Assembly (NCBI RefSeq): GCF_002155265.1
Contig: NZ_CP021251.1
Span: 558,001 to 622,000, forward strand
Origin: Corynebacterium pseudotuberculosis
Lineage (GTDB): Bacteria > Actinomycetota > Actinomycetes > Mycobacteriales > Mycobacteriaceae
Length of the DNA: 64,000 bases
Reading direction: 5' to 3'
The notes below the pieces were generated by a model. That model had not been told where the DNA came from. It searched no databases and saw only the letters and a program-made list of their open reading frames with translations. The translations under genes and the position numbers were made by a program. Position 1 is the first letter of the stretch; the number at the start of each line of letters is the position of its first letter. This document shows positions 26,068 through 42,943 of the stretch, piece by piece.

Positions 26068-26240
26068 CATAACCCCGTGTTCTAGCAGTGCTGTTCAAAG
26101 CCAGCCGTGCCAAGATCCCACCGGAAGTCACGCCATTCTTAGCTGAGGAAAAGACGTCTATGCTAAATATCATATCCTTTTCTTTAAAAGAAGCTATAGG
26201 ATAAAAATATCAACGAATTCCTCAAGACTGGACTGATCCC

Positions 26241-26537: not shown

Positions 26538-27658
26538 TAGCTGGACGCTCCAACCCAGCACGTTGGCGCGTCGTACTGCTCGTGCTCGGTGGCGTGTGCC
26601 TTTTGATGGGACTTAACGCCGCGCTGCTGCTCCTCGGGGTCCCCGCTCCCGTGGAATCGGAGACGCTGAGCAACAACCATGGGCTCATCATGACCCTTGG
26701 CTTCATGGGCACGGTCATTGCACTGGAACGCGCCCAAGCGCTCCACCAACCTTGGGCCTACCTTGCGCCGGGGTTGTTAGGCAGTGGTGGACTTGCGCTG
26801 GGCTTCGGTGCCAGCTGGCTCGGGCACACTCTTCTACTTGAAGGCACACTCGCCCTTCTGTTGGTTTACGCCCTGCTATTTAAGCGTGCACCTCTACCGT
26901 TGGTTGCAGTTCAAGGCCTCTCTGCTGTGTGGGCATTTATCGCAGCTGCCTTGGCCCTCACTCTGCCTACCGCGGACCTCATCGTCCCTCTTGCTGCCTT
27001 CATCGTGCTGACCATCGCCGCCGAAAGGGCAGAACTCGCGCAGCTGGCCATGGGGCCCAAAGCGATTCCCACTCTCGTACTTCTGTCCGCTCTACTCAGC
27101 GCCGGAGTTGCCGCGCACCTACTGTGGGCCTACAAGGGTGCACACCTCTATGGCGTCGCCCAGGCCATCATCGCGATGTGGTTGCTTCGCGACGACGTGG
27201 TGCGCATCTTCATCCGCGCACGCGGATTGCGTCGATACAATGCCAGCGCACTATTGAGCGGCTATACGTGGCTGACCCTCGCCGGCCTGATCTGGGCAGC
27301 AGGCGGTGGGCACATAGGGACGGCTTCCTACGATGCCGTCATCCACTGCACTTTCTTGGGTTTCGGCGTGTCCATGATCATGGCCCACGCGCCGATCATT
27401 TTCCCGACTGTGATTGGTCGCCCTTTGCCGTATACCCCGTGGTTCTACCTCCCTTTGGCGGCACTCCACGGCGGCATGGTTCTACGGATAGCTGGCGACT
27501 TCTCCGGGCAAGGCATCGCGTGGCAGATCGGAGGAAGCATCACCGTGATAGCCATGCTCATTTTCGTCATTCTTGCCGCGATGACGGTGCTTTTTAACCG
27601 ACGCGACCAGCAGCAACCCCAGACTCCACAAACGTGTGAAAAGAAAGTACAACAATGA
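26510..27658 (+). CDS. Polytopic membrane protein of nitrite/NO operon (NnrS-like fold)
   Basis: This 382-residue protein has about 11 or 12 transmembrane helices. Conserved-looking histidines lie in HGLIMTLGFMGTVIALERAQAL and in the pair VIHCTFLGFGVSMIMAHAPIIFPTVIGRPLPYTPWFYLPLAALHGGMVLR. This pattern resembles NnrS-like heme/copper membrane proteins that respond to nitric oxide, but the match is by eye only. The GTG start lies within the DUF2249 gene, and the 3' end overlaps the start of the nitrite reductase gene by 4 bases (ATGA). Context suggests it handles NO or metals for that enzyme. Confidence 0.65.
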   Translation: MDAQVHPRLVAGRSNPARWRVVLLVLGGVCLLMGLNAALLLLGVPAPVESETLSNNHGLIMTLGFMGTVIALERAQALHQPWAYLAPGLLGSGGLALGFGASWLGHTLLLEGTLALLLVYALLFKRAPLPLVAVQGLSAVWAFIAAALALTLPTADLIVPLAAFIVLTIAAERAELAQLAMGPKAIPTLVLLSALLSAGVAAHLLWAYKGAHLYGVAQAIIAMWLLRDDVVRIFIRARGLRRYNASALLSGYTWLTLAGLIWAAGGGHIGTASYDAVIHCTFLGFGVSMIMAHAPIIFPTVIGRPLPYTPWFYLPLAALHGGMVLRIAGDFSGQGIAWQIGGSITVIAMLIFVILAAMTVLFNRRDQQQPQTPQTCEKKVQQ

Positions 27659-30303
27659 ACCAGCCAAAAATGCCTCCCAATCGATCCGGACGCCGCAGCA
27701 GCTTGCGTGACTTCGTCGTCATCGGCTGGCTGGTGGCCTTGTTCGCAGTGATCTTCGTACACCGCTGGGTGCCGGAGGCCATGTGGCTGATGATTCACCT
27801 CGTGCTGCTAGGGGCACTGACGCATTCCGCAATGGTGTGGAGCGAGTACTTCGCGCACACTCTGCTGCGTACGGGGCAGGGTGCGCAAGAAAAGAAAAAC
27901 CAGAACCGCCGCATCCTCATCCTCGTGGCAGGTACCTTGATGGTTTTCATCGGGGTCCCGGCAGGGCAGTGGTGGCTGGTCGTGGCCGGGGGCGTACTCA
28001 TCGCGTCTGCGGTGATCTGGCATGGCGCCTATCTGTACCGCCAGTTGAAAAAAGCCTTGCCCGCGCGTTTCCAGATCGTGGTGCACTACTACGTGGCTGC
28101 GTCTTTTATGCTGCCGATCGGTGTGTTTCTCGGTGTGCTCATGGCCAGGAATCCGGAGGAACCTTGGTACGGGCAGTTCCTCATGGCCCACATTGCGGTG
28201 AATTTCCTAGGCTGGATCGGCCTGACAGTCGTGGGCACGCTGGTAACTCTGTGGCCAACGATGCTGCGCGCCCGCATGGACGAGCGCGCGGAGAAACTTG
28301 CTACTCGTGCTCTGCCAGTGCTGCTCTTAGGTATTGCAGTGATCGTGGGTGCAACACTGCTAGGTGCGATGAAGATGGCGCTGGCAGGACTCGTGGTGTA
28401 CTTTGCAGGCCTGGTTATTTGGGGAATCGCTCTGGGCAAGCCGTTGCGAGCAAAGGGGCTGCGTGAATTCGCGCCAGCATCCGTGTTGGCTGCAATGTTC
28501 TGGGCCGTTGTAGGGCTGGTCTGGGTGGGTATCATTCTTGCGACATCAACCAACTGGGCGCAGGTTACTGCGGCTCTGCCACTGATAGGTGGGGTGTTTG
28601 CTGCAGGCTTTGCTATCCAGCTGCTGTTTGGTGCGCTGACGTACCTTATGCCTTCCGTTATGGGTGGCGGAACAAGGGTCGTCCATGCGGGGCAGTCTGC
28701 GCTGCACAAGTGGACGACTTTCCGCATTCTTGTTCCAAACGTCGCGCTGGCACTGTGGTTGGTGGTCTCGGCCTCATGGGTCAAGGTTGCGCTGTCGGTC
28801 GTGGGGGTTTTGGTATTAGCGATGTTCGTGCCGCTTTTGGTCATAGCAGGGAAGCGTTGTGCGGCGATGCTTCGCGATAAGAGCACGGGTGCGGCGCTAC
28901 CTGAGTTCGATGTTCCCGCGACCTGGAGCTGGAATGGCGTGGTCGCGGCTGTAGCAGTGATCGTGCTGTCTGTGACCGCGGGTGTGGCTGTTGATCCCGG
29001 CGCAGCGGGTTTTCAGCCTCACGGCGGAACAAACAGTTCCGGTACGGGAGTCATGGCCACCGGCCAAGATACCCGCGTGGAGGTCACGATCGAGGGAATG
29101 CATTTTGTTCCGAGCCGCATCGAGGTGCCCACGGGTAACAGGTTGATCGTGGAGTTTAAGAACACCGGATCCGATGTGCACAACCTTGTGGTGGGCGACG
29201 CCCGCACACCCCGCCTCGCGCCGGGGGAGTCTCATACCTTAGAAGCTGGTGTGATCAGTCATGACGTGGAGGCTTTTTGCTCAGTTGCGGGGCACCGCCA
29301 GATGGGCATGGTTTTGGACGTTGTAGCCGTGGGCGCGCTCGCGGGGAACAGCATGACCGGAGGGGACCACGCCGGTCACACACCTATGTCCACCGGTCAG
29401 ATCCAGAACGTTCCGGGTGCTAAGTTGCAGGATCACATCGACCCGAAGCTGCCAAAGCTCGGCAGTGAGCGCGTGCATAAGCACCGCTTTGAGGCCACGG
29501 AGGTTCCCAATGAAGTCGCGCCCGGCCTGTGGCAGACGCGGTGGACTTTCAACGGGAAGTCTGTCGGCCCCACCTTGCACGGCCGGGTTGGAGATGTCTT
29601 TGAGATAACCCTGGTCAACAATGGCAGTATGGGGCATTCCATCGATTTCCACGCCGGTGCCCTAGCACCGGATCTCCCGATGCGTACCATCGCGCCGGGA
29701 GAGGAACTGGTCTATCGTTTTAAAGCCACGCGCGCGGGTATCTGGATGTATCACTGCGGAACGATGCCGATGACTAGCCATATTGCTATGGGTATGCACG
29801 GGGCCGTGGTGATTAAGCCCGAAGGATTGCCTGAGGTGGATCACGAATACGTGCTCACCCAGTCTGAGATTTATCTAGCTAACAAGGCGCGCTCTGCCGG
29901 TGAAGCCCAAGAGCTGGATAGCAAAAAGCTGGCGGAGGAACGGCCGGACCGGGTGGTTTTCAACGGCATCGCCAATCAGTATGATCAGCAGCCTTTTAGG
30001 GTAAAGGTCGGTCAGCGGGTGCGTTTCTGGGTTCTCGACGCTGGGCCGAACCGCGCGCTGTCCTTCCACGTCGTCGGCGGGCAGTTCGATACTTCGTGGA
30101 CTGAAGGTTACTACACCCTCAACCGGGGTGTATCCGCCGATGGAGCTACCGATGGAGGCGCTCAGGTCCTGCCGCTGCTTCCCGCGCAGGGTGGCTTTGT
30201 GGAACTGACTTTCCCGGAAGCCGGCCACTACGCCGTAGTCAATCACGTCATGATTGACGCAGAACGCGGTGCCCACGGCATCGTGGAAGTCACGGATCGC
30301 TAG
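27655..30303 (+). CDS. nirK: Membrane-fused copper nitrite reductase (TM domain + cupredoxin + NirK)
   Basis: An 882-residue fusion in three parts. Residues 1 to about 450 form a polytopic membrane domain with histidines (IHLVLLGALTHSAMVWSEYFAHTLL). A cupredoxin follows, with the type 1 copper ligands FCSVAGHRQMGM. The rest is a two-domain copper nitrite reductase: MGHSIDFHAG gives type 1 and type 2 histidines, WMYHCGTMPMTSHIAMGMHGAVVI gives the C/H/M set next to a type 2 His, and LSFHVVGGQFDTSW and NHVMIDAERGAHGIVEV complete it. The expected reaction is nitrite to NO on the outer membrane face, with electrons relayed through the extra cupredoxin. All key ligands appear present. The function of the membrane part is unknown. 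Confidence 0.85.
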   Translation: MNQPKMPPNRSGRRSSLRDFVVIGWLVALFAVIFVHRWVPEAMWLMIHLVLLGALTHSAMVWSEYFAHTLLRTGQGAQEKKNQNRRILILVAGTLMVFIGVPAGQWWLVVAGGVLIASAVIWHGAYLYRQLKKALPARFQIVVHYYVAASFMLPIGVFLGVLMARNPEEPWYGQFLMAHIAVNFLGWIGLTVVGTLVTLWPTMLRARMDERAEKLATRALPVLLLGIAVIVGATLLGAMKMALAGLVVYFAGLVIWGIALGKPLRAKGLREFAPASVLAAMFWAVVGLVWVGIILATSTNWAQVTAALPLIGGVFAAGFAIQLLFGALTYLMPSVMGGGTRVVHAGQSALHKWTTFRILVPNVALALWLVVSASWVKVALSVVGVLVLAMFVPLLVIAGKRCAAMLRDKSTGAALPEFDVPATWSWNGVVAAVAVIVLSVTAGVAVDPGAAGFQPHGGTNSSGTGVMATGQDTRVEVTIEGMHFVPSRIEVPTGNRLIVEFKNTGSDVHNLVVGDARTPRLAPGESHTLEAGVISHDVEAFCSVAGHRQMGMVLDVVAVGALAGNSMTGGDHAGHTPMSTGQIQNVPGAKLQDHIDPKLPKLGSERVHKHRFEATEVPNEVAPGLWQTRWTFNGKSVGPTLHGRVGDVFEITLVNNGSMGHSIDFHAGALAPDLPMRTIAPGEELVYRFKATRAGIWMYHCGTMPMTSHIAMGMHGAVVIKPEGLPEVDHEYVLTQSEIYLANKARSAGEAQELDSKKLAEERPDRVVFNGIANQYDQQPFRVKVGQRVRFWVLDAGPNRALSFHVVGGQFDTSWTEGYYTLNRGVSADGATDGGAQVLPLLPAQGGFVELTFPEAGHYAVVNHVMIDAERGAHGIVEVTDR

Positions 30304-30312
30304 TCCGTCAGT

Positions 30313-30338
30313 ACCTTGCCCCGCAGCTCGGGCAAGGT
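30313..30338 (+). terminator. Hairpin after nirK-like gene
   Basis: A perfect 9-bp stem (ACCTTGCCC / GGGCAAGGT) 10 bases after the stop. There is no U tract, so strength is uncertain. Confidence 0.5.
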
Positions 30339-30553
30339 GAGCCCCCAGCGTGACGACGAGGCAGTCTTTGCTAAAAGGAGCGGCTTGCACAATGCTTGCA
30401 GGTTTGTCTCAACGCGACTGTCTCCACGCGGGTGGGGGACTCGACCTAGCGCATTAGGGTTTATTTTTAATAGCCGAGGAAAAAGGGAAAGTGATTGTGA
30501 TCTTCGGATCACTTATGTCTTTGCTATGTACTAAAATCACAATTCCTTATAAA

Positions 30554-30572
30554 TTAGGTTAGGCTTACCTAA
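30554..30572. promoter_or_regulatory. DtxR iron box upstream of secreted protease
   Basis: TTAGGTTAGGCTTACCTAA matches the DtxR consensus TTAGGTTAGCCTAACCTAA at 17 of 19 positions. It lies directly after a TATAAA (-10-like) at 30548-30553 and 24 bases before the start codon, where a bound repressor would block initiation. Iron-replete repression of the downstream protease is inferred. Confidence 0.85.
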
Positions 30573-30595
30573 TCTAAACGGGAAGGTGGCTCAAT

Positions 30596-31270
30596 ATGTA
30601 TTCCTCCCTCAAAGAAAGGTCTTCTGTCAAAATGAAGATGCATACGCGTGTGGCTATCGCGCTATTCGGTTCATTTATTGCTGCTTCAACGCTTGCGGGC
30701 ACTGCTACTGCCGACGAATCTAATGGACCGATCAAAAATGGAAGTTTTATTGAGGTATTCAATGGCGATACACGTATCGGGTCATGCTCGGCAACAGTGA
30801 TTGAAAAGGGAAGCCTGTTAACGGCTGGACATTGTGGTCATGTGGGTGCGAAAGTTCGCATCAGGGATAAGGAAATCGGCTTCGTGGATTCAAGTGGTCT
30901 CCGTCAGGGCTACGATATTATTCACGTCACACTTAATCCCGGTATAAAAGTTGTGCCTATGAAAGCTGATTTGGGATATACCCCTAAGACTGGAGACCGT
31001 GTATCGAAAGACGGTTGGCGCAGCCTTCATACTGAAGGGACTGTGAAGGATCCTGAAATTAAGGAAGTTAAATCCCGCGAGAGCATCAACGCGCCTGTTG
31101 ACGGGCAGACGTTTACCGTATCAACCTGGACCGCGGACCTAGTTAGCCTGCAAGGCGATTCTGGTGGAGCTGTGACCCATAATGGGAAAGTTGTGGGACT
31201 AGTCAAGGGTGGACCAAACGATGAGGTCACAACTTACTCCCTTGGGGGCTGCCCTTCAGTCTTTGCATGA
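30596..31270 (+). CDS. Secreted trypsin-like serine protease, iron-regulated
   Basis: This is a chymotrypsin-fold (S1) protease of 224 residues with a Sec signal (TRVAIALFGSFIAASTLAGTATADE). The triad is visible: TAGHCGH (His), YDIIHV (Asp) and LQGDSGGAV (Ser). Two cysteine pairs are likely (GSCSATV...GHC). The propeptide is minimal, unlike the longer protease at 45256. ATG 30596 follows GGAAGG; ATG 30632 (MKMHTRV) is a possible inner start. The DtxR box in its promoter places it in the low-iron response, fitting a role in host protein use. G+C is lower than in the preceding operon. Confidence 0.88.
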   Translation: MYSSLKERSSVKMKMHTRVAIALFGSFIAASTLAGTATADESNGPIKNGSFIEVFNGDTRIGSCSATVIEKGSLLTAGHCGHVGAKVRIRDKEIGFVDSSGLRQGYDIIHVTLNPGIKVVPMKADLGYTPKTGDRVSKDGWRSLHTEGTVKDPEIKEVKSRESINAPVDGQTFTVSTWTADLVSLQGDSGGAVTHNGKVVGLVKGGPNDEVTTYSLGGCPSVFA

Positions 31271-31383
31271 ATAGAACGATCGAAGAAGCGGCGACTCATG
31301 CTGAGAAAGCTAGTTACGGTAAACAGCAAGTTGAATAGTCGTGACGAGTCTCTTGGCTTTAAAAAGTCTCTTCTATGAGACAT

Positions 31384-31408
31384 AGTTCAAATTCTATTCC
31401 CGCTACTA
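31384..31408 (+). repeat. Decayed tRNA 3' end, possible att remnant
   Basis: GTTCAAATTCTATTCCCGCTACTA aligns with the T arm and acceptor end of the initiator tRNA (17562-17585) at about 19 of 24 bases; all differences are C/T or G/A. No 5' half of a tRNA is present, and a terminator follows directly, as after the real tRNA. It may mark the far edge of an island inserted at tRNA-fMet, or be a relic of another tRNA. Confidence 0.4.
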
Positions 31409-31416
31409 AAATGGAT

Positions 31417-31447
31417 CCCCCGATTTGTAAAAGCGAATCGGGGGTTT
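31417..31447. terminator. Rho-independent terminator
   Basis: A 9-bp perfect stem (CCCCCGATT / AATCGGGGG) with a TTT tail, about 150 bases after the protease gene. The 31271-31607 gap otherwise holds only the tRNA-like remnant. Confidence 0.75.
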
Positions 31448-31607
31448 CTTGCCTCTCGAGGAGGGAAAATGCCGGGGAAGGAAGCGCCTATTGGTAAGCG
31501 CAGGGGAGAAGGAAATATCAAGATCAACTGTTCAAAAAGAAAAACCCCACTGACGTGGGGAAGTTTTCTCATCGGTTACCGCGGAACAGCACAGACTACG
31601 AGAGTTC

Positions 31608-32455
31608 TTAATTCCAATAGAGTGAGTCGCGGGATTTTTCTCCGGATTGGTCCCAGTCAAAGCGAACAGACTGAGCATGCTTATTGTTTGCGGAGTCTTG
31701 ATTCTTAGTGATCACTCCGATGTTTCCGCGTGCGTAGACCCGGTTGACCTTTAAAAGAGACTCAGACGTTGGTATACGGCTGGAATCGGGGATTCCGCAG
31801 GCTTTGTCTGCTCCACCATTGAGGTGGAGAGCATTGTCACCCGAAGCCGTTGCCGGCACCAAGGTAGGAGCGATAACGGCAGCGTGCTCGGCGTCGGCAA
31901 GCCCGGAGAGCGCGAGCGGGTCATCGGAACCTTTGGAGACTGCCCCTAAGAATTCAACGTCGTAGGCATAACACATGAAATGTGAAACCTCGTTGGATTC
32001 ATTGGTGTTAAGAAGACTGACTTTCTCTAAAGGCAGTGGGACACCATCGTGGGCAGTGACGGCCCAGACAAGGTAGCGTCCCTCAGAATCTTCGGTGACT
32101 ACATTTGCGGTTTCTCCAAATTTTAACGTGGTGCCCAATGGGGTTATTTTGACTTCTTTATCATTAGGATAAAGAAATATTTGCTGTTCAGGAAGTGCCT
32201 CTGGAGGTTGCGGAGCTTCAGAGCTTACGCTGGGAGGCTCAGGAAGATCCTTCTTGTTAACCACCTCATTATGTTTGTCGGCGGTGATCTTTTTTCTAGT
32301 TTCGGCTTATCCTTATTTGACGGATGTGGATGGAAGCCCGCAGCATCATTTCCTCCGCACGCTGTGACTAGCGTGGCAAGCGTAGCGGCAGCAGAGAGTT
32401 TAAGGACAAAAGTCCTGAACGAGCGGTGCGTGCTAGCCCGATGAGACTTTGACAT
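31608..32455 (-). pseudogene. Lipoprotein gene with a one-base frameshift in an A tract
   Basis: The first frame gives a lipoprotein signal (TFVLKLSAAATLATLVTACGGN) and runs GFHPHPSNKDKPKLEKRSPP. The second frame carries KKITADKHNEVVNKKDLPEPPSVSSEAPQ onward for about 215 residues. The frames join if the A6 run at 32290-32295 (T6 on the plus strand) had seven A's, giving KLEKKITADKHN. So one A is missing: a true null allele, phase variation by slippage, or a sequencing error. The rebuilt protein, about 282 residues, has FMCYAYDVEFLG and CGIPDSSRIP, with two cysteines. It lies 17 bases after the acyltransferase-like gene and is the last gene of the Pls-type operon. I recognise no function. Confidence 0.75.
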
Positions 32456-32472
32456 AGCGTTTTCTTTCTCTG

Positions 32473-33840
32473 TTAGTTTTCTGTGTCACTGACGGTTTTG
32501 GGTTGAGCAGGGAGAAACGCTCTGCTCACCCGTTTGGAGATTTTTGATACGACCTCTTCTAGTGGTCCACGGCCTCTAGCAAGCTGCCATGCGGTGCCAA
32601 ATAGCAAAGCCCCAAGAACATGAACCATGAACCAGAGCGTTGGCAGGGCCTCTGTAGATTCTTTGAATGTGGCCATCAGGAGGATGTGGGAGACGTAGAG
32701 CGTCAGAGTCATCGATCCAGCGGCAATTAATGGGATAAAGAGGTTCTTAATCATTCGGGTGATTACAAGGAATGAACCGAGAGCCAAAATTGCTGTGCCA
32801 AGGGACGTGAGCAAAGAAAATGGTGTGTTCACGTGCGGGCCGTTGATAGCCAGCCACCACCATGTGTCCGTAGGAAGATGGATCTCAGGGCCAAAGTCGA
32901 TGACTCGAAGAATGTCCTCTACATCGTAATTATCAGTGTGGTAATAGAGCTGAGAGAACCCGCCTACGTAGTCAATAAGGAAAGTTGATAGAAGAAAGCC
33001 CATGATCGCGGCAACCGCACCGATGGCGATGAGCCTGGTTTGGGTAATTAACCAATGGAGGTTCATGCGGCCTAGGGCTATGCCTACACAGATGTACGCC
33101 ATCCAGGTGACCACCGGGTAGGTACCACCGACAAACAACGTGATGATGGTGTCAACAGGCAGATTAATCAACGAGGAGAAGCTGGGGTTCAGAGTGGTGG
33201 TGTAGTGTCCCCAAGAATTCACCGCAAAGATTGCTAGGGGACCAGCGATAATGAACACCCCGCTGAGGATGAACAACGTCCGAATTCTCAAGGAGACGAG
33301 CGCGATGGACAGCAGGAATAGTAGGCCGTAGTAAGCCAAAATATTGGATACTGGCAGCCTGATCTCGTCGAGGGCTAACCCCAAGGCAAAGACAATAACC
33401 GCGCGAACTGCTAGTGATATCTGATCGCGGCGAAGCTCCCTGCCAGAATGCGGCATATTTCCGCCCGTAAGAAGTGCGATAGTTACTCCCGCCAGTAGCG
33501 CAAATAACGCAGAAGAATTTCCACCGAATAACTGCCAGATCAAAGTGGGTTGGTCGGTGTATTTGTTGTACGCAGGAAGCACATGAACGGCGATCATGCC
33601 TATGAGGGCAAAGCCGCGGGCTGAGTCGATACCAATGATGCGTCGAGGATCGGCAGAAGAACCAAAGGCAAGTTCTTTGTTCCAGCGTGATGGGCGAATT
33701 TCTGGCTCCGGTGGTGGACTATAAGGTTGGGGTAGTACCTCGGCTTCGCCGTTCCAGATAGGACGGACACACGCAGGGCCTGGTTGTGGCCTAGTTATAG
33801 CATCTGAGGTGTGATGCTGCGTAGATATCTGTGATGTCAT
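32473..33840 (-). CDS. Polytopic acyltransferase-like membrane protein (DUF1624/YeiB-like)
   Basis: This 455-residue protein has a 65-residue cytosolic proline-rich N-terminus and about 10 membrane helices. RRIIGIDSARGFALIGMIAVHVLPAYNKY is the start signature of heparan-alpha-glucosaminide N-acetyltransferase-like (DUF1624) and YeiB (DUF418) proteins, with the conserved Asp/Arg and the membrane histidine. AAGGA lies 7 bases before the ATG. It begins 33 bases after the peptide-synthetase gene and ends 17 bases before the lipoprotein, so it is operonic. It could acylate or move the polymer made by the synthetase across the membrane; this is inference. Confidence 0.75.
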   Translation of the reverse strand: MTSQISTQHHTSDAITRPQPGPACVRPIWNGEAEVLPQPYSPPPEPEIRPSRWNKELAFGSSADPRRIIGIDSARGFALIGMIAVHVLPAYNKYTDQPTLIWQLFGGNSSALFALLAGVTIALLTGGNMPHSGRELRRDQISLAVRAVIVFALGLALDEIRLPVSNILAYYGLLFLLSIALVSLRIRTLFILSGVFIIAGPLAIFAVNSWGHYTTTLNPSFSSLINLPVDTIITLFVGGTYPVVTWMAYICVGIALGRMNLHWLITQTRLIAIGAVAAIMGFLLSTFLIDYVGGFSQLYYHTDNYDVEDILRVIDFGPEIHLPTDTWWWLAINGPHVNTPFSLLTSLGTAILALGSFLVITRMIKNLFIPLIAAGSMTLTLYVSHILLMATFKESTEALPTLWFMVHVLGALLFGTAWQLARGRGPLEEVVSKISKRVSRAFLPAQPKTVSDTEN

Positions 33841-33873
33841 TGTCGATTCCTTGGATGTGGTGAAATCAATCCA

Positions 33874-36800
33874 CTAGCCGATGAGAACGGCTTCTTGCGG
33901 GAGAGTGTTTTGGGAAGTGCTATCAAAATCAGTGATGCTTTTAGGATCAGCGACATAGGAAACGGGGTTTCCGGACCAGACGCTATCGTTGGGGATAGCG
34001 TCTTGGCGCAATATCAAGGATCCGGGGCCGATGGTGGCCCGATCACCGATGGAAGAGCCGGGAAGGATAAAACTATTGGGGCCAAGGGTAGAGCCTGTCC
34101 CCATGGTGACTGTCTCTAGGGCCATAACGCGATCATGGAATAGATGCGTCTGGAGAACGGTACCCCGGTTGATCGTGCAACGGTCTGAAAGGGTGATCAG
34201 ATCGAATTCCGGGAGCCACCAGGTTTCACACCAGACGTCGCGGCCGATATGCGTTCCCATGAGCCGCAACCACCAGTTATAGAGTGGTGACCCGAGCGAC
34301 ATTCTGATCAAAGAAGGCACTGCCAGAAGTTCAGCGATATTATCGGTGAGTTCGCCGCGCCAAACAAAGGTGGAAAAGAGCGTGCGATGCCCCGCAGTAA
34401 ACCGACCTATGAGAAGCCATTTCATTATGATTGGCACGATGCTGGCGATAATTCCAGCTCCGAGAACGATGGGGAAAGACCACAGCAAGACTGCCTGGAT
34501 TCCGCCCCATCCGCGTCCGCCCGACATGTATGCCAGCGTGCCCAGCCACACGATTAAAAGATCGAGATAAGCAGCAACGATTACAGGCAGGAGTCGGAAC
34601 AACTCGACGAATGCGCGGGCTACTTTGAGCCGGTCAGAAGGATTGAAAGTGCGTTGAACATCGGCGTCGATATGGGCGCGAGGGATTTGGCGGGTAGACC
34701 TACCAAGCCAAGAAGTGCCTTTACCGGGGCGCTCAGGAGTCGATGAGAGAACCGCGACCAGAGACTCGGCAGGAAGATCGTGGTCGGGGCCAACAATTCC
34801 AGAATTACCAACAAATGATCCATCGCCGAGGACGGTTGTGCCGACGTGAACCCAGCCGTTGTTATAGCGTGCCGACGTACACATGGAGTGATCTGCAAGG
34901 AAGCAACGGTCACCGATGGCTGTCAAGTGCGGAATGGTCTCAACAGTAGATATCTCGGTGTCTTTGCCCACACGAGCCCCCAGAAGTCGCAGGAAAGCAG
35001 GAGTGAGCCAACCGGCGTACACAAAATAAGTGGAGGTGAGTGTTTTCTGTAGCAGCGTGTGTGTCATCCACAGTGCCCAGCCAGTGCTGGAGTGAACCGG
35101 GTAATAGCCTGGACGAATCAACAGTGAGCAGAGGCGAACCGTGATGATCACTAGCGCCAGCCAACATGCAACAGTGAGAATCGCGAAGAAGGGCGTCCAT
35201 GCTGCCAAGATCAAGAAGACCTCTTGGTACCGGAAATTATCCACCACCGTGGGCAGGATGAGGAAGGTCGCCGGTAGCACTGCCAAAACCGGCAATAAGC
35301 TCTGCAATAACAATCCGAACATGTACAGCAGATGGTGGGATAGGAATCCCAGCCCGGTGACGGTTCCCTCGGCGATAGCCTCTTTGGGGGTTTGGCTAGG
35401 CCAGGTGGTCTTGCTCGGGCCGTTATCGCTTAGCGGATTTCCGCTGTAGCACCGACCCTCGGCGACGGTACCTGTGACACAGGAGCCGGGGATAATCTCT
35501 ACGTCATCGCCAATACGCGACCCAGGGGAAACGAATGTTCGCATGCCAACACGTACGCGATCACCGATGGTGATGTCTCTGACGTAGAAGGTATCGCCCT
35601 CAATCCAGTGTCCATTAATGTCCACTTCATTTTCCAGGACTGAGTTCTCGCCTATTGTTGCCAGACCCGTGACCGGTGGGAATGCTGCTAGCGTAGTTCC
35701 CTTGCCTACTTTGCAACCAAAGAGACGGAACAAGAGCGGAGTCGATGGAGTGTCAAGGATTGCGTCTAAGCGTAAATAGGCCAAGAAGCGTTCCGCAGAC
35801 CAGACTCGTAGATGAGTCCAACCACCTCGTGGGTAGTCTCCAGGTCGGATGCCAAAGGTAGCGATGCGAGCCACAAGTGCCGCTTGCAAAATCTTTCCGG
35901 GAGTGGAAAAGAGCACAATCATGCCAATGCATATCGGCCAGAATGGGACGGTGGGTACCCATGCCGCAGAGAAGAAGAATCCCAGGGCCCATACAACAAA
36001 GACCGATCCGACGATATACCGAGCAACGTTGACGGTGTAAATACCGCAGACGATCAGGAACTGGATGATGCCAGACCACCACGGGATCTTCTTGGGTAAT
36101 GGCCGTTGTTCGGTGTCGTTGTGGAGTGTATCCACGTAAGCGGCCATGCTAGACAACGTGGGGTTATCGTAAAGAGCTCCGATATCCAACGCAGGGTGGG
36201 ACTTCCTTAGCGCAATAGCTAATTTTGCAATAGCCACCGATGAGCCGCCAAGGTCGAAGAAATTAGAGTCGGCTTCAATCGGGACAGGTCCTAGCTGGTC
36301 TATCCATTGATCTGCAAGCCAACGCAATTGTTCAGGCAGTGCCTCAACGGAATCGCGAGAATCCGGTAACGGCCAAGGAAGTGCCTTGCGATCCACCTTG
36401 CCGGAGGTCTTCATAGGAAGCTCATCGACGATGCACAACGTGGGAGCGATTCCACCAGGTAAGACGGTGGCTAGATGGGTGCGGGCTTTGTGCAGGTCTA
36501 TAGTTACCGGCTTGCCCTCGTCCTCTTCCGGAACAACATAGCCGATGATAACGTCAGATCCAGCCGTGGTTGTTTGCTTGGCTGCCGCTGCTACTCCGGG
36601 TACAGATGCGAGGGCTCGGTCGATCTCACCAAGTTCCATGCGGCGGCCGCCGAATTTGATTTGATCATCCGCGCGTCCCGCAAAGATGATTCCCTTTTGA
36701 TCCGCTACCACAAGATCGCCAGTCCGGTAGGCGCGTTCCCACCCTAGGGATTCGAGGGGAGCGTAGGCTTGGGCATCTTTTTCTTGGTCTAGGTACCGGC

Positions 36801-37872
36801 CTAAGCCGACCCCTGTTACAAGGAGCTCACCAGTTTCTCCCCAGCGCACGGGATCGCCAGTCTCCGGGTCTACGATGGCGAGCTCCCAACCTGGGACGGG
36901 ACGGCCGATTCGTACCGGCTCTTTATCCGTCATCGGTTCCATGAGATGACCCGAGCAGATAATGGTGGCTTCTGTTGGGCCATAGGTGTTCCAAAGCTCG
37001 CGACCTGGGGCTGCGAGTCGGTTAACCAACTCTACGGGGAGAGCCTCACCACCAAAGATCAAGAGACGTACTGCGGCTAACGACTCAGTGGGCCAGAATG
37101 ACGCGAGAGTTGGCACCGTTGATACAGCGGTGATTTCGTTTTTTGTGATCCACTTGCCCAGCTCATCTGCGGAACGGACAATATCGCGAGGAGCAGGGAC
37201 GAGAGCAGCCCCGTACCGCCAGGCCAGCCACATTTCTTCACAGGATGCGTCGAATGCAACAGAGAGTCCGGCCATGACCCGATCCTGAGGTCCTAGAGGA
37301 TCGTTGACCAGGTACATGCGTGCCTCTGCATCAACAAGCGCCGCTGCAGAGCGATGGGTAACCGCCACTCCCTTGGGCTTACCCGTGGAACCAGAGGTAA
37401 AGATGATCCATGCGTCGTCAGCAATTGTCGGCTCACAGGCTTTGACGGGAGCGAGAGTATTACCTCTGAGGTCGAGGGAAAGTTCGGCGCCATAGACAGC
37501 AGTGACATTGGCTTCTTCCCATACTGTGTTAGCTCGAGAATCTGGATCGTCCCAGTCAACAGGAACGTAGGCCGCCCCAGCACAGATCGTGGCAAGTATT
37601 GCTATGTACAGGTCGGTGGTGCCTGAGGGTACCCGAATTCCGATGCGCGCTCCGCGGCCGACCCCGAGAGCCGCCAAGCGCTCTATTTGCTTCTCGACGC
37701 GCTCTGCTAACTCGCTGTAAGTCAGAGATTCATTTGTGCCAATAAGAGCGGTGGCGTTGGGGTAGCTGATTACGGTGTCGCTGAAAATATCAACGAGCGT
37801 GCGAGGTTCGGGGATGGTATCGACGCCGTAGATTGCATACGTACGGTCGTCGGATGGGGCTGGTTTTCCCAC
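33874..37872 (-). CDS. Pls/PosA-type non-ribosomal peptide synthetase (poly-amino-acid synthetase-like)
   Basis: A single-module synthetase of about 1332 residues; poly-epsilon-lysine synthetase Pls is about 1320. Order: adenylation domain (IIFTSGSTGKPKGVAVTH, YRTGDLV, KTSGKVDRKALP), carrier domain (FFDLGGSSVAIA, Ser 545), then about six TM helices between three left-handed-helix soluble domains (IGENSVLENEVDINGHW; IGDRCFLADHSMC; LGPNSFILPGSSIGDRATIG). In Pls these C-terminal domains join monomers into an isopeptide chain. Pocket residues by alignment to PheA are D208 A209 E212 S251 I272 G274 T296 I304 I305 K492. The acidic residue at the 239 position suits a basic amino acid. GTG 37872 is chosen, with AAAGGA 9 bases upstream; TTG 37890 is an alternative. 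No condensation or thioesterase domain is present, as expected for the family. Confidence 0.88.
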   Translation of the reverse strand: MGKPAPSDDRTYAIYGVDTIPEPRTLVDIFSDTVISYPNATALIGTNESLTYSELAERVEKQIERLAALGVGRGARIGIRVPSGTTDLYIAILATICAGAAYVPVDWDDPDSRANTVWEEANVTAVYGAELSLDLRGNTLAPVKACEPTIADDAWIIFTSGSTGKPKGVAVTHRSAAALVDAEARMYLVNDPLGPQDRVMAGLSVAFDASCEEMWLAWRYGAALVPAPRDIVRSADELGKWITKNEITAVSTVPTLASFWPTESLAAVRLLIFGGEALPVELVNRLAAPGRELWNTYGPTEATIICSGHLMEPMTDKEPVRIGRPVPGWELAIVDPETGDPVRWGETGELLVTGVGLGRYLDQEKDAQAYAPLESLGWERAYRTGDLVVADQKGIIFAGRADDQIKFGGRRMELGEIDRALASVPGVAAAAKQTTTAGSDVIIGYVVPEEDEGKPVTIDLHKARTHLATVLPGGIAPTLCIVDELPMKTSGKVDRKALPWPLPDSRDSVEALPEQLRWLADQWIDQLGPVPIEADSNFFDLGGSSVAIAKLAIALRKSHPALDIGALYDNPTLSSMAAYVDTLHNDTEQRPLPKKIPWWSGIIQFLIVCGIYTVNVARYIVGSVFVVWALGFFFSAAWVPTVPFWPICIGMIVLFSTPGKILQAALVARIATFGIRPGDYPRGGWTHLRVWSAERFLAYLRLDAILDTPSTPLLFRLFGCKVGKGTTLAAFPPVTGLATIGENSVLENEVDINGHWIEGDTFYVRDITIGDRVRVGMRTFVSPGSRIGDDVEIIPGSCVTGTVAEGRCYSGNPLSDNGPSKTTWPSQTPKEAIAEGTVTGLGFLSHHLLYMFGLLLQSLLPVLAVLPATFLILPTVVDNFRYQEVFLILAAWTPFFAILTVACWLALVIITVRLCSLLIRPGYYPVHSSTGWALWMTHTLLQKTLTSTYFVYAGWLTPAFLRLLGARVGKDTEISTVETIPHLTAIGDRCFLADHSMCTSARYNNGWVHVGTTVLGDGSFVGNSGIVGPDHDLPAESLVAVLSSTPERPGKGTSWLGRSTRQIPRAHIDADVQRTFNPSDRLKVARAFVELFRLLPVIVAAYLDLLIVWLGTLAYMSGGRGWGGIQAVLLWSFPIVLGAGIIASIVPIIMKWLLIGRFTAGHRTLFSTFVWRGELTDNIAELLAVPSLIRMSLGSPLYNWWLRLMGTHIGRDVWCETWWLPEFDLITLSDRCTINRGTVLQTHLFHDRVMALETVTMGTGSTLGPNSFILPGSSIGDRATIGPGSLILRQDAIPNDSVWSGNPVSYVADPKSITDFDSTSQNTLPQEAVLIG

Positions 37873-37890
37873 CGAAAAAGTTCCTTTCAA

Positions 37891-39027
37891 TTGCTTTAAA
37901 AGCCTCCAAAGTTTGTTAGCGGAGACCCCTGTCAGTGAACTATTGCCCAGATATAGTCTGTGCTTTTTAGAAAGCTAATAGTTTCCGATTGAGCGATAAG
38001 AGTAATTTACACTCAACCTGATGAAATATTCTTAATAACATATTTAAGTCATATGCAAATCAGTGAAATATTATTATTTTATCGATAGAAAATAGGGGTT
38101 TTTATTTCCGTGCTGGTTGTGAGGCTTTTCTATCTTTTCGCGTATGCATTACGGGAATACAAGGTGTGAAATTAAGCACATTTTAAGGGATTTAAAAACT
38201 ATTGCAAAGCCATTTGAAGTGCCCTTTAGTCACTATTGCGAGTTGTTTGAACGCATGTGAAAAATGATACTTTTTAATCGGGAAATATACGGTTAGGCAT
38301 TGCTTAATTAGTTCTTTTAATAGGCAATTTCCAAATCTTATATAAGTAAAATAAACCTATTTGCCTAGGTCGGTGAAAATAGGAATAAGGGCTGGACGGA
38401 ATGCTTTCTTTTCCTGTTTGTGATCTGGGGTAGGCGGCGAAAAGAATGGCCAAAGTACTGATATATCGTCTGGCTGTTTTATAGGGTGGGGCAGGCCTAA
38501 ATAATCGGCAGGGGGAGTTTTTAATCTTCCGATATTCATTGAAGGCGAGTGGTCTGAAATTTTCAGCTTTTATTAAGTAAATGAGAAAGCTGTGAATTCT
38601 TCTTTATCGCCCGTAATTCTCCGTTTTCGAGTTTTCGTTTTTAAACGTGAATATTGCCGGAATGTATTTCATGCTGGGGCTATGTGAATTGTGTGGGTTT
38701 ATTGGGGGTTGTTTTTGCGGAGTTAAAAAAGGGGAGGGGCAGTAAGTATTTCGTACGGAAAACTATAAAAAATGGATTTGTGAGATTTTCCACTTAAGAG
38801 AAATGGTTACCGGAGCGGGGAAGGGGCGGTTGTTTCGGTCCCCGGCGTTGTCCTAGTTAGTTGGCTCTTTTTCGTTTCCTATATGTCTACCGATATTTTT
38901 TAAAAAAAGTGACAAAAAACGCATTCATACAAAAAATCTTATTAGGATATTTTTAGTTCATTTATAAATTTGTGTAAGTTTCTAAATGCATCGATCGAAT
39001 GTATTTATTTGATTTCCGCTTTTATAT
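37891..39027. other. AT-rich noncoding region
   Basis: About 1.1 kb between the divergent synthetase and small secreted protein genes, with long A/T tracts (for example near 38020-38110 and 38890-38980) far below the G+C of the flanks. A 60-codon frame at 38357-38539 has no ribosome site or recognisable motif, and I reject it. The region must carry the promoters of both flanking genes; such DNA is a typical target for Lsr2-like silencers. Confidence 0.6.
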
Positions 39028-39042
39028 AAGGAGAGTTTTATT

Positions 39043-39321
39043 TTGAAGATTCGCAAGATCACCCTGACTGTTACCGGTGCTGCCATGTTGGCGGGGGTTG
39101 CCTCGGCGCAGGCAAGTACGTATTCCCCAGAGCCGCATTCCAAAGAATGGTGCCATAATACCTTCGGTGATGGTCAGCATGACCTCTGTAATTACTACAA
39201 CTGGGCAACGGATGCTGCCCGTATTCTGCGGCAGAATGGTGAGGATCAAGCTAAGGACTATCAGTCTGCTGCGGATGAGGCCCTGCGCCGTCTTTATGAG
39301 GAACAGAAACGGGGCCTTTAG
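39043..39321 (+). CDS. Small secreted two-cysteine protein
   Basis: The 92-residue precursor has a clear Sec signal (KIRKITLTVTGAAMLAGVASAQAS). The mature part is about 68 residues, with two cysteines (EWCHNTFGDGQHDLCNYYNW), probably one disulfide, and then an amphipathic helix (DEALRRLYEEQKRGL). The start is TTG with AAGGAG at 39028-39033. It is divergent from the synthetase operon across AT-rich DNA and stands alone before a terminator. I recognise no family; a host-directed or envelope role is possible. Its N-terminus resembles that of the pseudogene at 25750. Confidence 0.75.
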   Translation: MKIRKITLTVTGAAMLAGVASAQASTYSPEPHSKEWCHNTFGDGQHDLCNYYNWATDAARILRQNGEDQAKDYQSAADEALRRLYEEQKRGL

Positions 39322-39366
39322 TCCTATATTCCTATAGCTTTAACTGCCGCTACGCTATCTGTCATT

Positions 39367-39413
39367 AAGGCCCTTATGGTTCTTTCCTTGTGGGATCGAA
39401 CCATAAGGGCCTT
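39367..39413. terminator. Strong terminator after small secreted protein
   Basis: A 16-bp perfect inverted repeat (AAGGCCCTTATGGTTC at 39367-39382 with its complement at 39398-39413), 15-base loop. Confidence 0.85.
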
Positions 39414-39702
39414 GTCTGTGTGGCGGGCATGTGGTGCGGAACTGCCCAATTATGTGATTTTGATAAAAATGACGTAATTTAGTCACTAAAAATTTTATTT
39501 GTACTGTGATCTCCATTGCATTCTCTTTATTGTGGGCCTTTAACTAAAGTGCCCGCTAGCTGCGCAATGTGGTGTTGGGGTGCGTGAGAACGTCGAAAAG
39601 CTTTATGGATAACTATTACTTGATAGCTTTCGCCGTGTATTTTCTCCTTATTGCTTAGTGCACAATGCGCTGGGCTTAGTCCGAAAAGGTCGGTCAGATT
39701 TT

Positions 39703-41142
39703 ATGGCGCATACAGATTCTTCATTTCTTACAGCGGATCAGGAGGGATACAAGACAACTCTGGGTTCACGCCACATCCAGATGATGGCACTGGGCTCTGC
39801 GATTGGTACGGGGCTCTTTATGGGAGCTGGCGGGCGTTTGGCCACTGCGGGGCCGTCGTTGGTTTTGGCGTACCTTATTTGTGGCTTTTTTGCTTTCTTT
39901 ATTCTGCGTGCTGTCGGTGAACTTGTTTTGTATCGCGCGTCTTCCGGCGCGGTAGTCTCGTGGACTCGTGAATTTATGGGCGAGCGTGCGGGGTTTGTGG
40001 TGGGGTGGGTCTACTTTATGATGTGGGCCTTGACCGGAATTGCAGACACCACGGCTATCGCGATTTATCTGAAGTTCTGGAATCTTTTCTCGGATGTTCC
40101 GCAGTGGACACTTGCATTAGCCGCATTGGTTATTGTTTTGCTTCTGAACCTCATCTCAGTCCGCGTTTTTGGCGAGATGGAGTTTTGGTTTGCCATGATT
40201 AAAATAGCTGCAATTTGCCTGTTTATGGCCGTCGCAATCTTTTTTGTGGTCACGGGTCGCGTTGTGGTGGATCAGCCGGCGGGGCTTGCCAATATCCTTG
40301 ATCACGGCGGGGTCTTTCCTACGGGATTTTTGCCTTTAATCGTTGTTATTAGTGGCGTGGTTTTCGCTTACTTTGGCATTGAGCTGATTGGCACTGCTGC
40401 GGGGGAGACTAAGGACGCAGAGAAAGAGATGCCCAAGGCTGTAAACAGCGTTATTTGGCGCATCATTGTGTTCTACTGTGGCTCGGTGTTGTTGTTGGCT
40501 TTGGTGCTTCCATACACCGCATATTCTGCAGGGGTCTCACCATTTGTCACCTTTTTTGATTCGATCGGTGTTCCTTCTGCGGGAACGATTATGAATCTGG
40601 TTGTTATCACCGCGGCTTTATCGTCTTTAAATGCCGGTCTGTATTCCACTGGGCGTACCATGCGCACCATGGCCAGGGCCGGAACGGCTCCGGAGGCGTT
40701 GGGCGCTTTTAATAAACGAGGTGTGCCTTTTGGCGGTATCGCGCTGAATTCTGCAGTGGTGCTAGTCGGCGTAGTTATCAACTACCTGGTTCCAGGAAAG
40801 GCGTTTGACATTGCTCTTAATATGACCGCAATCTGTGTGGTTATTAACTGGGCTTTCACCATCGTGTGCCATATGCAGATGATTAAAAAGGTGGAGGAAC
40901 GCCCTGCCTTCCGGATGCCGTGGGCGCCCGTGACCAACTGGCTAACGCTAGGTTTCTTGGCGGTCATCGTTATCTTGATTGCCTCTGGTTCCTGGGACGG
41001 ATTCCTAACTGTTGTTGCGTCTGTGTGCATGACTCCGTTGTTTGTTCTGGGGTGGCTGGCAACTCGGGGACAAGTGGAAAAACGTCGTGAGGAACATACT
41101 CGGGCGAATGACATAAAACAGGAGAGCGTTATAGAGGTCTAA
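39703..41142 (+). CDS. Amino-acid permease, AnsP-like (APC superfamily)
   Basis: A 12-TM transporter of about 479 residues. LGSRHIQMMALGSAIGTGLFMGAGGRLATAGPSL is the family signature (helix 1 substrate loop SAIGTGLF), and GFFAFFILRAVGELVLYRASSGAVVSWTREFMGE closely resembles L-asparagine permease AnsP. The AAT subfamily also includes lysine and aromatic permeases, so substrate is not fixed. ATG 39703 gives a normal N-terminus; the GTG at 39658 adds 15 unlikely residues. It stands alone; a weak imperfect hairpin follows near 41152-41178. The 39414-39702 gap holds only promoter-like AT-rich DNA. Confidence 0.85.
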   Translation: MAHTDSSFLTADQEGYKTTLGSRHIQMMALGSAIGTGLFMGAGGRLATAGPSLVLAYLICGFFAFFILRAVGELVLYRASSGAVVSWTREFMGERAGFVVGWVYFMMWALTGIADTTAIAIYLKFWNLFSDVPQWTLALAALVIVLLLNLISVRVFGEMEFWFAMIKIAAICLFMAVAIFFVVTGRVVVDQPAGLANILDHGGVFPTGFLPLIVVISGVVFAYFGIELIGTAAGETKDAEKEMPKAVNSVIWRIIVFYCGSVLLLALVLPYTAYSAGVSPFVTFFDSIGVPSAGTIMNLVVITAALSSLNAGLYSTGRTMRTMARAGTAPEALGAFNKRGVPFGGIALNSAVVLVGVVINYLVPGKAFDIALNMTAICVVINWAFTIVCHMQMIKKVEERPAFRMPWAPVTNWLTLGFLAVIVILIASGSWDGFLTVVASVCMTPLFVLGWLATRGQVEKRREEHTRANDIKQESVIEV

Positions 41143-41433
41143 GGTTTGTTTGCGCTCTGGTGCCGGGCAGAGGCGCTCTGTGAGGAGCTGCCGCTGCGCG
41201 GCCCGTTTTATAAGAATGATCACTTTGCGCAAACATTGTGACTAATTTATGGAATTTTCAATTTAGTGAAAAACTTCACAGGATATTTTCGGGATATCTG
41301 ATCGGACATTTCCGAGCGCAAAAAGCCGTTTTACCTGAGAAAACAACGTGGTTCATCCGGTTTTTATTTGGGTTTTGTTTGTTTTGTGATCTATTTCGGA
41401 TAAAACTACCGTGCAACTGAGCTCAAATCCGCA

Positions 41434-41439
41434 TAGATT
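41434..41439 (+). promoter_or_regulatory. -10 box of transcarboxylase operon, leaderless start
   Basis: TAGATT ends 7 bases before the ATG at 41447, and no ribosome site precedes that ATG. Transcription would begin at or one base before the start codon, giving a leaderless mRNA, common in actinobacteria. The 41143-41446 gap shows nothing else but AT-rich sequence. Confidence 0.45.
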
Positions 41440-41446
41440 GTGAACT

Positions 41447-42928
41447 ATGAGCCCAAGAAAAATTGGAGTGACTGAGGTCGCTTTACGCGACGCGCATCAG
41501 AGTTTGTTTGCAACTCGTATGGCTATGGAGGACATGGTTGATGCGTGTGAGGACATAGATAAAGCAGGATTCTGGAGCGTGGAGTGCTGGGGTGGTGCAA
41601 CGTTTGATGCGTGCATCAGATTCCTTAATGAGGATCCCTGGGAGAGACTTCGCACCTTCCGTAAGTTGATGCCAAATTCCAAGCTCCAGATGCTGCTCCG
41701 CGGGCAGAACCTTCTGGGATATCGCCACTATGAAAACTTGGTAGTAGACAAGTTTGTTGAGAAGTCCAAGGAAAACGGCATGGATGTATTCCGTGTCTTT
41801 GACGCTCTCAATGATCCACGCAACCTAGAGCACGCTATGCGGGCGGTGAAGAAGGTTGATGGACACGCTCAGGGAACCATCTGCTACACCGTTTCACCAC
41901 TACACACCGTTGAAGGATACGTTGAGCTTGCTGGTCGCCTTCTAGATATGGGGGCAGATTCCATCGCGCTGAAGGACATGGCAGCGCTTTTGAAGCCGCA
42001 ACCAGCGTATGACGTTATCCGTGGAATTAAAGAGACCTACGGCGAAGATACTCAGATCAACGTCCACTGCCACTCCACCACCGGCGTCACGCTAGTAACT
42101 TTGATGAAGGCCATTGAAGCTGGCGCAGACGTTGTGGATACCGCCATTTCCTCTCTCTCACTCGGGCCAGGCCACAACCCCACCGAGTCTCTCGTAGAGA
42201 TGCTTGAGGGCACCGACTACACCACTGACCTAGACATGGATCGCCTGATCAACGTGCGCGATCACTTCAAGGCAATCCGTCCAAAGTACAAGGAATTTGA
42301 GTCCAAGACGTTGGTGGATACCAACATCTTCCTCTCACAGATTCCTGGCGGCATGCTTTCTAACATGGAGAGTCAGCTGACCGCTCAAGGCGCCGGAGAT
42401 CGTATCGACGAGGTGATGCGGGAGGTCCCAATCGTCCGCAAAGATGCAGGATACCCGCCACTGGTTACTCCATCTTCCCAGATCGTGGGAACCCAGGCTG
42501 TTTTCAACGTCCTTATGGGGCGTTACAAGGTAATGACTGCAGAATTTGCGGATCTGATGCTTGGTTACTACGGCGAGTGCATAGGCGAGCGCAATCCCGA
42601 AATCGTGGAGCAGGCAAAGGCACAGACCAAGAAGGAAGCTATTACTGTGCGTCCGGCTGACCTCCTTGAGCCAGAGTGGGATCACCTTGTGGAGGAAGCA
42701 AACAAGCTTGAAGGCTGCGATGGCACAGACGAAGACGTGCTTACCAACGCGCTGTTCCCAGGCGTCGCCCCAGGCTTCTTTAAAAACCGCCCCGAGGGGC
42801 CAAAGAATGTGGGTAAGGACCCATCAAAGATCAAGACCCGCGAGAATGAGGCCGTTCTCGAACCGATTACCTACAAGGTCACCGTGGGCGGTCGCAGCCA
42901 GACCGTCAAGGTCGAGCCCGCCGAGTAA
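41447..42928 (+). CDS. Transcarboxylase 5S subunit (pyruvate/oxaloacetate carboxyltransferase)
   Basis: This 493-residue TIM-barrel subunit transfers a carboxyl group between biotin and pyruvate/oxaloacetate. VALRDAHQSLFATRM holds the metal-binding Asp, SIALKDMAALL the carbamylated lysine, and INVHCHSTTG the two metal histidines. The C-terminal extension (ITYKVTVGGRSQTVKVEPAE) resembles the start of a biotin-carrier linker. Length fits the Propionibacterium 5S subunit and also oxaloacetate decarboxylase alpha; the genes that follow favour transcarboxylase. It is first in a four-gene operon. Confidence 0.92.
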   Translation: MSPRKIGVTEVALRDAHQSLFATRMAMEDMVDACEDIDKAGFWSVECWGGATFDACIRFLNEDPWERLRTFRKLMPNSKLQMLLRGQNLLGYRHYENLVVDKFVEKSKENGMDVFRVFDALNDPRNLEHAMRAVKKVDGHAQGTICYTVSPLHTVEGYVELAGRLLDMGADSIALKDMAALLKPQPAYDVIRGIKETYGEDTQINVHCHSTTGVTLVTLMKAIEAGADVVDTAISSLSLGPGHNPTESLVEMLEGTDYTTDLDMDRLINVRDHFKAIRPKYKEFESKTLVDTNIFLSQIPGGMLSNMESQLTAQGAGDRIDEVMREVPIVRKDAGYPPLVTPSSQIVGTQAVFNVLMGRYKVMTAEFADLMLGYYGECIGERNPEIVEQAKAQTKKEAITVRPADLLEPEWDHLVEEANKLEGCDGTDEDVLTNALFPGVAPGFFKNRPEGPKNVGKDPSKIKTRENEAVLEPITYKVTVGGRSQTVKVEPAE

Positions 42929-42943
42929 AGGAGAACCGAAGAC

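Follow-up and report, generated by a model that had tools for sequence, protein, structure and literature searches.

A candidate operon for a probable epsilon-poly-L-lysine synthetase of a second lineage and a membrane acyltransferase in Corynebacterium pseudotuberculosis

On the minus strand of a 64,000-nucleotide stretch of the Corynebacterium pseudotuberculosis genome (NZ_CP021251.1, positions 558,001 to 622,000; the window, whose own numbering we use throughout), we identified a gene set that on balance appears to be an operon for an epsilon-poly-L-lysine (epsilon-PL) synthetase of a second lineage and a dedicated membrane acyltransferase. The synthetase gene, pls, is followed after 33 bases by the acyltransferase gene, act, and after a further gap of 17 bases by a lipoprotein gene that begins at ATG 32455. 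The gene spacing and the Pfam matches bear out the operon-like set of synthetase, DUF1624-like membrane protein and lipoprotein gene that the initial annotation of the locus had described. The synthetase very likely uses lysine, and an epsilon-linked polymer is its likely product. That the act product acylates this polymer is a tentative proposal, whose chances we put slightly short of even. The parts of the set are:

33874..37890, minus strand: pls, lineage II Pls/PosA synthetase (open reading frame, Pfam, TIGR02353, alignment to 7wew)
Residues ~30-505 of the pls product: A domain (PF00501, 215 bits)
Residues 523-586 of the pls product: T domain, with LGGSS at 547 (PF00550, 38.8 bits)
Residues 609-1310 of the pls product: C-terminal domain (TIGR02353 'Pls/PosA family', 513.7 bits against an NCBI cut-off of 423.1)
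32473..33840, minus strand: act, transmembrane acyltransferase of the TmAT superfamily (HGSNAT_cat/AT3; PF07786 and PF01757 over cut-off)
31608..32455, minus strand: lipoprotein gene, frame interrupted (two parts in different frames)

The pls product has 1338 amino acids when read from the TTG at 37890; an in-frame GTG at 37872, the end coordinate of the initial annotation, is a possible alternative start within the same open frame. Pfam finds no condensation or thioesterase domain in it, and the combination of A and T domains without either, followed by a C-terminal polymerization domain, is that of the Pls/PosA family. A crude hydropathy scan placed hydrophobic clusters of the C-terminal part at 608-663, 853-929 and 1093-1165, which would fit six transmembrane helices, with one further stray segment inside the A domain. 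The Pls-type layout that had been proposed agrees with the family matches and the three membrane-like clusters. Its three beta-helix domains are recovered in part: one passes the Pfam cut-off on its own (PF00132, hexapeptide repeats, 1261-1294), and a second appears as a sub-threshold LbH match (744-802).

Among solved structures, the A domain comes closest to that of the epsilon-PL synthase 7wew (~582.7 bits). Taken by alignment, the pocket of the window pls reads DAESIGTIIK, the same lysine-like code, with Glu at 239, that had been read at the outset. The pocket of 7wew is DAESIGTVVK (by eye), so that comparison with a solved structure and with other Pls enzymes, a check proposed in the initial annotation, leaves two changes of Val to Ile as the only departures. 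The alignment is ungapped from pocket position 235 to 331, and the Lys at 517 is part of a SGKVDRKALPWPLP motif common to both proteins. The numbers 235 to 517 are what we take to be PheA positions. Their spacing agrees with the PosA contacts D217, M218, E221, T304 and S313 (PMC10522769). Across 113 Pls rows the code is DAESIGTVVK in 92, DAESIGTVIK in 15, DAESIGTIIK in five (including L081, a second copy of the window pls) and DAESVGTVVK in one. The window pls thus has the lysine-type pocket DAESIGT(V/I)(V/I)K; the ornithine pocket of the PosA type has Met at 236 and Ser at 331, where the window pls has Ala and Ile. Ala is also the residue at 236 in lysine-activating homologues, where PosA has Met (Patel et al., PMC10522769).

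We placed the synthetase in a FastTree phylogeny of 126 Pls rows (117 of them different), in which support is local only and several long branches are flagged. The window Pls belongs to a group of 20 rows on one side of a fully supported branch, which we call lineage II, drawn from Corynebacterium, Kocuria, Arthrobacter, Nesterenkonia, Citricoccus, Zafaria and Paeniglutamicibacter. A second branch with full support separates lineage II and nine further rows (eight Streptomycetaceae, one Pseudonocardia) from the other 97. Ile occupies pocket position 331 in 19 of the 20 lineage II rows, where no fewer than 98% of the other rows have Val; further lineage-specific switches lie at residues 364, 570, 951, 955 and 1001 of the window Pls. 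Positions that are near-invariant in the 97 rows outside lineage II and the nine rows beside it are kept by the window pls at 144 of 154 sites in the A domain, 7 of 9 in the T domain and, for the C-terminal part, 93 of 108. Both pls and act are under purifying selection: the ratio of nonsynonymous to synonymous substitution rates (dN/dS) against C. silvaticum, whose Pls is 91% identical, is 0.047 for pls and 0.083 for act.

A Pls match (E <= 1e-200) is present in 152 of 201 Corynebacterium genomes. Among the matches listed, lineage II accounts for 32 copies (at least 55% identity) in 31 of the 201; the survey misses weaker Pls fragments. At least one further Pls match is found in 25 of these 31 genomes, and in 24 of the 25 it stands at 43-47% identity among the matches listed, the second Pls of G119 being counted and not among them.

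Neighboring genes at related loci also point to lysine. DapA is the entry into the lysine and diaminopimelate pathway, and dapA lies between pls and act at L008, L009, L010, L011 and L013 (tblastn, 58-63% identity to the L009 gene). These are five of the six Micrococcaceae loci outside Kocuria (the Nesterenkonia/Arthrobacter group), the sixth, L012, being without it. The L009 product scores 270.6 bits against the TIGR00674 equivalog (cut-off 206), and the same tblastn search found no dapA at the Kocuria and Corynebacterium lineage II loci. We take this placement of dapA as support for lysine as the substrate.

The act product matches PF07786 at 37.7 bits (cut-off 22) and PF01757 at 33 bits (cut-off 31) and has many overlapping hydrophobic segments in the crude scan, the TmAT fold being one of ten helices around an acyl-CoA pore, with the DxxRx10H motif in helix 1. 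It carries DxxRx10H at D72, R75 and H86, invariant in an alignment of 57 sequences (54 from the 120 listed act homologues, 174 having been found, and three from the loci). Together these matches uphold the prediction of a DUF1624-like membrane protein with a possible role in modifying the product, and the motif places it in the TmAT superfamily. In excerpts of PMC12423673, DxxRx10H is the AT3 motif within that superfamily, and TmAT proteins move acyl groups from acyl-CoA to extracytosolic acceptors, mostly sugars in the cases described; HGSNAT, another member, acetylates an amine from the lysosomal membrane (excerpts of PMC11199644). Because TmAT proteins transfer acyl groups in this way and HGSNAT acetylates an amine, we propose that the act product acylates amines of the polymer. 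To our knowledge, a polycation would be a new kind of acceptor for a TmAT enzyme.

The two genes are closely co-inherited. At 30 of the 32 listed Corynebacterium lineage II pls, act follows downstream on the pls strand, with 37 to 1942 bases between the match ends, and the other two copies end at contig edges. Among the loci fetched, every one of the 20 lineage II rows has act, and none of the other Pls loci does; its absence is weaker evidence at L088-L110, where flanks are 1.5 kb only, and wherever contigs are short. A short fetch of the G012 lineage II copy (L084) is without act, which the longer fetch of the same copy (L114) contains, and L013 has two act genes, one on either side of pls. 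We conclude that pls and act form a real, conserved, operon-like pair. The pairing is less than perfect: in G118 a 29% act homologue and a Pls of the other kind lie 1.6 kb apart on opposite strands, and in G129 a 30% homologue is 7.8 kb from such a Pls. We found no report of an acyltransferase paired with pls in the best-ranked part of the results from the open-licence literature, and 'acyltransferase' occurs 0 times in PMC8117764.

The Corynebacterium genome G108 has two equally similar lineage II pls-act pairs in opposite orientation, ~82 kb apart (C1:55826-59728 and 141716-145618). In G012, transposase-like frames lie inside pls (L114:10781-12088), with the remaining pls and act beyond them.

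In the mechanism that we propose, the A domain would activate L-lysine and the T domain would carry it as a thioester. The membrane-embedded C-terminal domain would link lysines through their epsilon-amino groups and export the polycation outwards. The TmAT acyltransferase would move acyl groups from cytosolic acyl-CoA across the membrane and would most likely cap amines of the emerging polymer. Such capping might lower the charge of the polymer and its toxicity to the producer, or might suit the polymer to a surface role. If true, acylated epsilon-poly-lysine would be a new class of modified cationic homopolymer, perhaps serving producer self-protection, and natural polylysines that are less toxic or of different activity could result. 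The polymer is in use as a food preservative, and the co-inherited acyltransferase may tailor it or protect its producer.

The window genome, a single contig of 2,337,763 bases, encodes a second Pls, of the other kind, with the pocket DAESIGTVVK (G000:C1:876633-880412; L111:8616-12446). Of eight AMP-binding matches in the genome, none but those of the two Pls has a PP-binding match in its frame; PP-binding matches number five, one in each Pls, two within one 1616-aa frame and one in a 122-aa frame. No condensation domain (PF00668) was found in the whole genome by a search that was positive in 4 of 14 controls, which ruled out a siderophore or classical nonribosomal peptide synthetase (NRPS).

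These two enzymes bear on two genes of strain FRC41. The excerpts of PMC3022926 name as candidate virulence factors cpfrc_00562 (a secreted trypsin-like protease), cpfrc_00565 (nrpS1) and cpfrc_01801 (nrpS2). The role of the latter two is given there as not deducible, and they are described as NRPSs only; earlier work cited there found an NRPS-like gene tag 44-fold induced in macrophages, which nrpS being unstated. By locus-tag number nrpS1 stands three genes from the protease, as pls does in the window, where the order protease, lipoprotein, acyltransferase, pls corresponds to cpfrc_00562 to cpfrc_00565. The window pls therefore matches nrpS1 by gene order. Because the genome has exactly two A-T proteins and both are Pls, nrpS1 and nrpS2 should be these two, and nrpS2 is probably the second Pls. 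The excerpts of PMC10008321 mark nrpS2 as 'No' for C. silvaticum, and in the genome of that species the single Pls at E <= 1e-200 is a lineage II one (L001, identical in place to G197); this support is soft because that paper gives nrpS2 as cpfrc_00180, not cpfrc_01801. We found no link of nrpS1 or nrpS2 to polylysine in the open-licence literature, and neither PMC3022926 nor PMC9784263 has the word 'lysine' in its main text. The proposal would provide a concrete product for two genes listed since 2010 as candidate virulence factors without an assigned function in an animal pathogen. It is tempting to extend it to lineage II operons in general as makers of an acylated epsilon-poly-lysine class, with nrpS1 and nrpS2 as two polylysine synthetases whose products are one modified and one not, but we hold this wider claim to be somewhat doubtful.

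Synthesis of this polymer by an enzyme of the genus is not itself new, although the initial annotation called such a polymer unfamiliar there. Jiang et al. 2021 (PMC8117764) identified epsilon-PL from a C. variabile pls expressed in Streptomyces coelicolor M145 under the S. albulus pls promoter, and found Pls in 10 of the 12 cheese and skin isolates of Corynebacterium that they examined; for Streptomyces, epsilon-PL is assayed there once cultures have been shifted to pH 4. An epsilon-PL-like cluster is noted in excerpts of a C. striatum pangenome paper (PMC10486106). What is new is the pairing of lineage II with an acyltransferase and the proposed identity of nrpS1 and nrpS2. The window Pls resembles the epsilon-PL synthetases of Streptomyces albulus and C. 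variabile (PMC8117764) in domain layout, TIGR02353 match, lysine-type pocket and C-terminal domain, but it falls in a separate clade, has Ile 331, and has an acyltransferase as its conserved partner. With PosA of Acinetobacter baumannii (PMC10522769) it shares the family, the architecture and an acidic Glu reading the side-chain amine, whereas the PosA pocket is DMEHNGTVSK and posA is a single-gene operon. The act product resembles HGSNAT/YeiB and AT3 proteins of the TmAT superfamily (excerpts of PMC12423673) in PF07786, PF01757 and DxxRx10H.

Several observations weigh against reading the locus as an operon for a polylysine synthetase and its acyltransferase. The family, layout, pocket, lineage, pairing and selection are computed, and the product is a prediction from the genes. 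No epsilon-PL was obtained from C. variabile under the test conditions, nor from C. glutamicum carrying the C. variabile pls (PMC8117764). The tie between acyltransferase and polymer consists of gene position and co-inheritance only, and a PDB sequence search with the act product, alone and as a profile, matched no solved structure. In addition, act lies on another contig than the lineage II pls in G064 and G109, G178 has two extra close act homologues, and in G111, G126, G174 and G200 such homologues (38-54% identity) have no listed lineage II pls beside them. An alternative is that Pls polymerizes lysine and the acyltransferase acts on another envelope molecule (a lipid, glycan or glycolipid) within a shared envelope response. 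TmAT proteins mostly acylate sugars (excerpts of PMC12423673), in agreement with such a role. The act homologues that lie away from pls in Corynebacterium, mostly at 25-35% identity and a few at 38-54%, also fit it. However, a close act homologue tracks one Pls lineage across all of its genera, from Corynebacterium and Kocuria to Arthrobacter, Nesterenkonia, Citricoccus, Zafaria and Paeniglutamicibacter, and Micrococcaceae lack the mycolic-acid envelope of Corynebacterium; we consider an envelope target the less likely reading.

The lineage-specific Ile 331 is a further difficulty for lysine as the substrate: by spacing it sits where PosA has the Ser needed for ornithine, so a shifted substrate preference is possible. 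Lineage II might then activate another diamino acid (ornithine, 2,4-diaminobutyrate or meso-diaminopimelate) and make another cationic or zwitterionic polymer, a view with which the near-fixed Ile 331, the five other lineage-specific switches and the supply of diaminopimelate as well as lysine by DapA agree. The code of the ornithine enzyme PosA is clearly different, however (PMC10522769), and lineage II keeps the lysine-code residues A236, E239, S278, I299, G301 and T322, which leaves another substrate improbable. It is also conceivable that the operon is silent or decaying in C. pseudotuberculosis, with no polymer made. The lipoprotein frame is interrupted in the window genome; two of the 32 listed lineage II copies look damaged, in G012 by the transposase-like frames (by eye) and in G123 by three stops, and the G109 copy, cut by a contig end, has one stop. 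NrpS1 and NrpS2 are also marked '-' in the protein detection table for C. pseudotuberculosis 12CS0282 (excerpts of PMC9784263). Against silence or decay stand the low dN/dS values of pls and act, whose frames are both open, and the macrophage induction of an NRPS-like tag, be it nrpS1 or nrpS2; we give this possibility little weight. An operon for a polylysine synthetase and its acyltransferase remains our preferred reading.

In the window, the lipoprotein gene is split between two frames. The part with the signal peptide and lipobox starts at ATG 32455, and the remainder (31608-32264) is in a different frame. Lipoprotein matches occur in four of the 19 other lineage II rows (L001:11442-12284, L002, L112 and L113, all uninterrupted; blastp 1e-3), with no match at that threshold in the remaining 15 of the 20 rows; two more are proteins without context (P0123, P0124). 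Given the interrupted frame and the 15 unmatched rows, we set aside surface anchoring via this lipoprotein, suggested in the initial annotation, as a general feature. The 218-aa remainder recurs in eight sequences on two contigs (protein cluster P0122), and a single sequencing error is therefore unlikely. Its dN/dS against C. silvaticum is 0.104, low despite the interrupted frame, and the loss may therefore be recent. An AlphaFold model of an uninterrupted relative has a mean predicted local distance difference test score of 67, with residues 1-87 under 50. Foldseek with this model gave no match at E <= 0.001. An MPT63-like immunoglobulin fold is hinted at by its top two, 9a4z (a YxkC-DacA model, E 0.013) and 1lmi (MPT63, E 0.035), together with 3cfu (YjhA), ranked 18th. 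Run as a profile against Pfam and the PDB, the lipoprotein alignment returned nothing usable.

Streptomyces PldII is presumably an M1 peptidase. PMC8117764 describes it as a peptidase in an operon with pls. Searched with a Nocardia M1 peptidase query (tblastn, 1e-10), 71 loci gave a match. Two of them, L009 and L013, are among the 20 lineage II rows, and the others are 69 of the 76 loci of other Pls outside Corynebacterium; at L011, also among the 71, the match adjoins its other Pls copy. The search found none in the window, which is thus not of the pls-pldII operon type, none at the fetched corynebacterial Pls loci of either kind, and none at seven of the nine rows of the group beside lineage II, some of them on short contigs. 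Since the corynebacterial loci of the other Pls kind and those seven rows also gave no M1 match, and L009 and L013 have both genes, we dropped the idea that act replaces a degrading M1 peptidase.

The flanks of the gene set contain the following features:

31545..31560, minus strand: intrinsic-terminator-like hairpin and T run, 3' of the lipoprotein gene (terminator scan)
37891..39042, minus strand: upstream intergenic region, 1.15 kb, AT-rich (36% GC against 52.5% in the window), presumably regulatory
30596..31270, plus strand: secreted trypsin-like protease gene, a convergent neighbor outside the operon (PF00089, 35.1 bits)

Terminator-like matches across the region number 10, against 7.6 in shuffles (standard deviation 2.6), with no clear excess, and promoter-like matches at the locus are no more frequent than chance. 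An Rfam scan of window positions 26000-45000, the intergenic region upstream of pls included, found no RNA match. Further out, positions 27655-30303 encode a membrane protein of 882 aa with fused cupredoxin and copper nitrite reductase-like domains, which scores 163 bits against TIGR02376, under the cut-off of 296.

At the second pls, a MarR-type regulator gene (L111:12447-12887) lies directly upstream and a convergent polyphosphate kinase 2 (PPK2) gene (L111:7016-7939) downstream. The PPK2 neighbor cluster occurs at 19 corynebacterial loci, representing 14 distinct places, two of which were checked by Pfam; a role in ATP supply to the second Pls is conceivable. An M20 peptidase (L111:2734-4299), ~4 kb away and not adjoining pls, was not counted as a partner. 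Pls/PosA genes ~46% identical to the window pls are also present on Mycobacterium avium/intracellulare plasmids (NZ_CP023152.1, NZ_AP012556.1, NZ_CP076859.1, NZ_CP076857.1 and NZ_CP059000.1).

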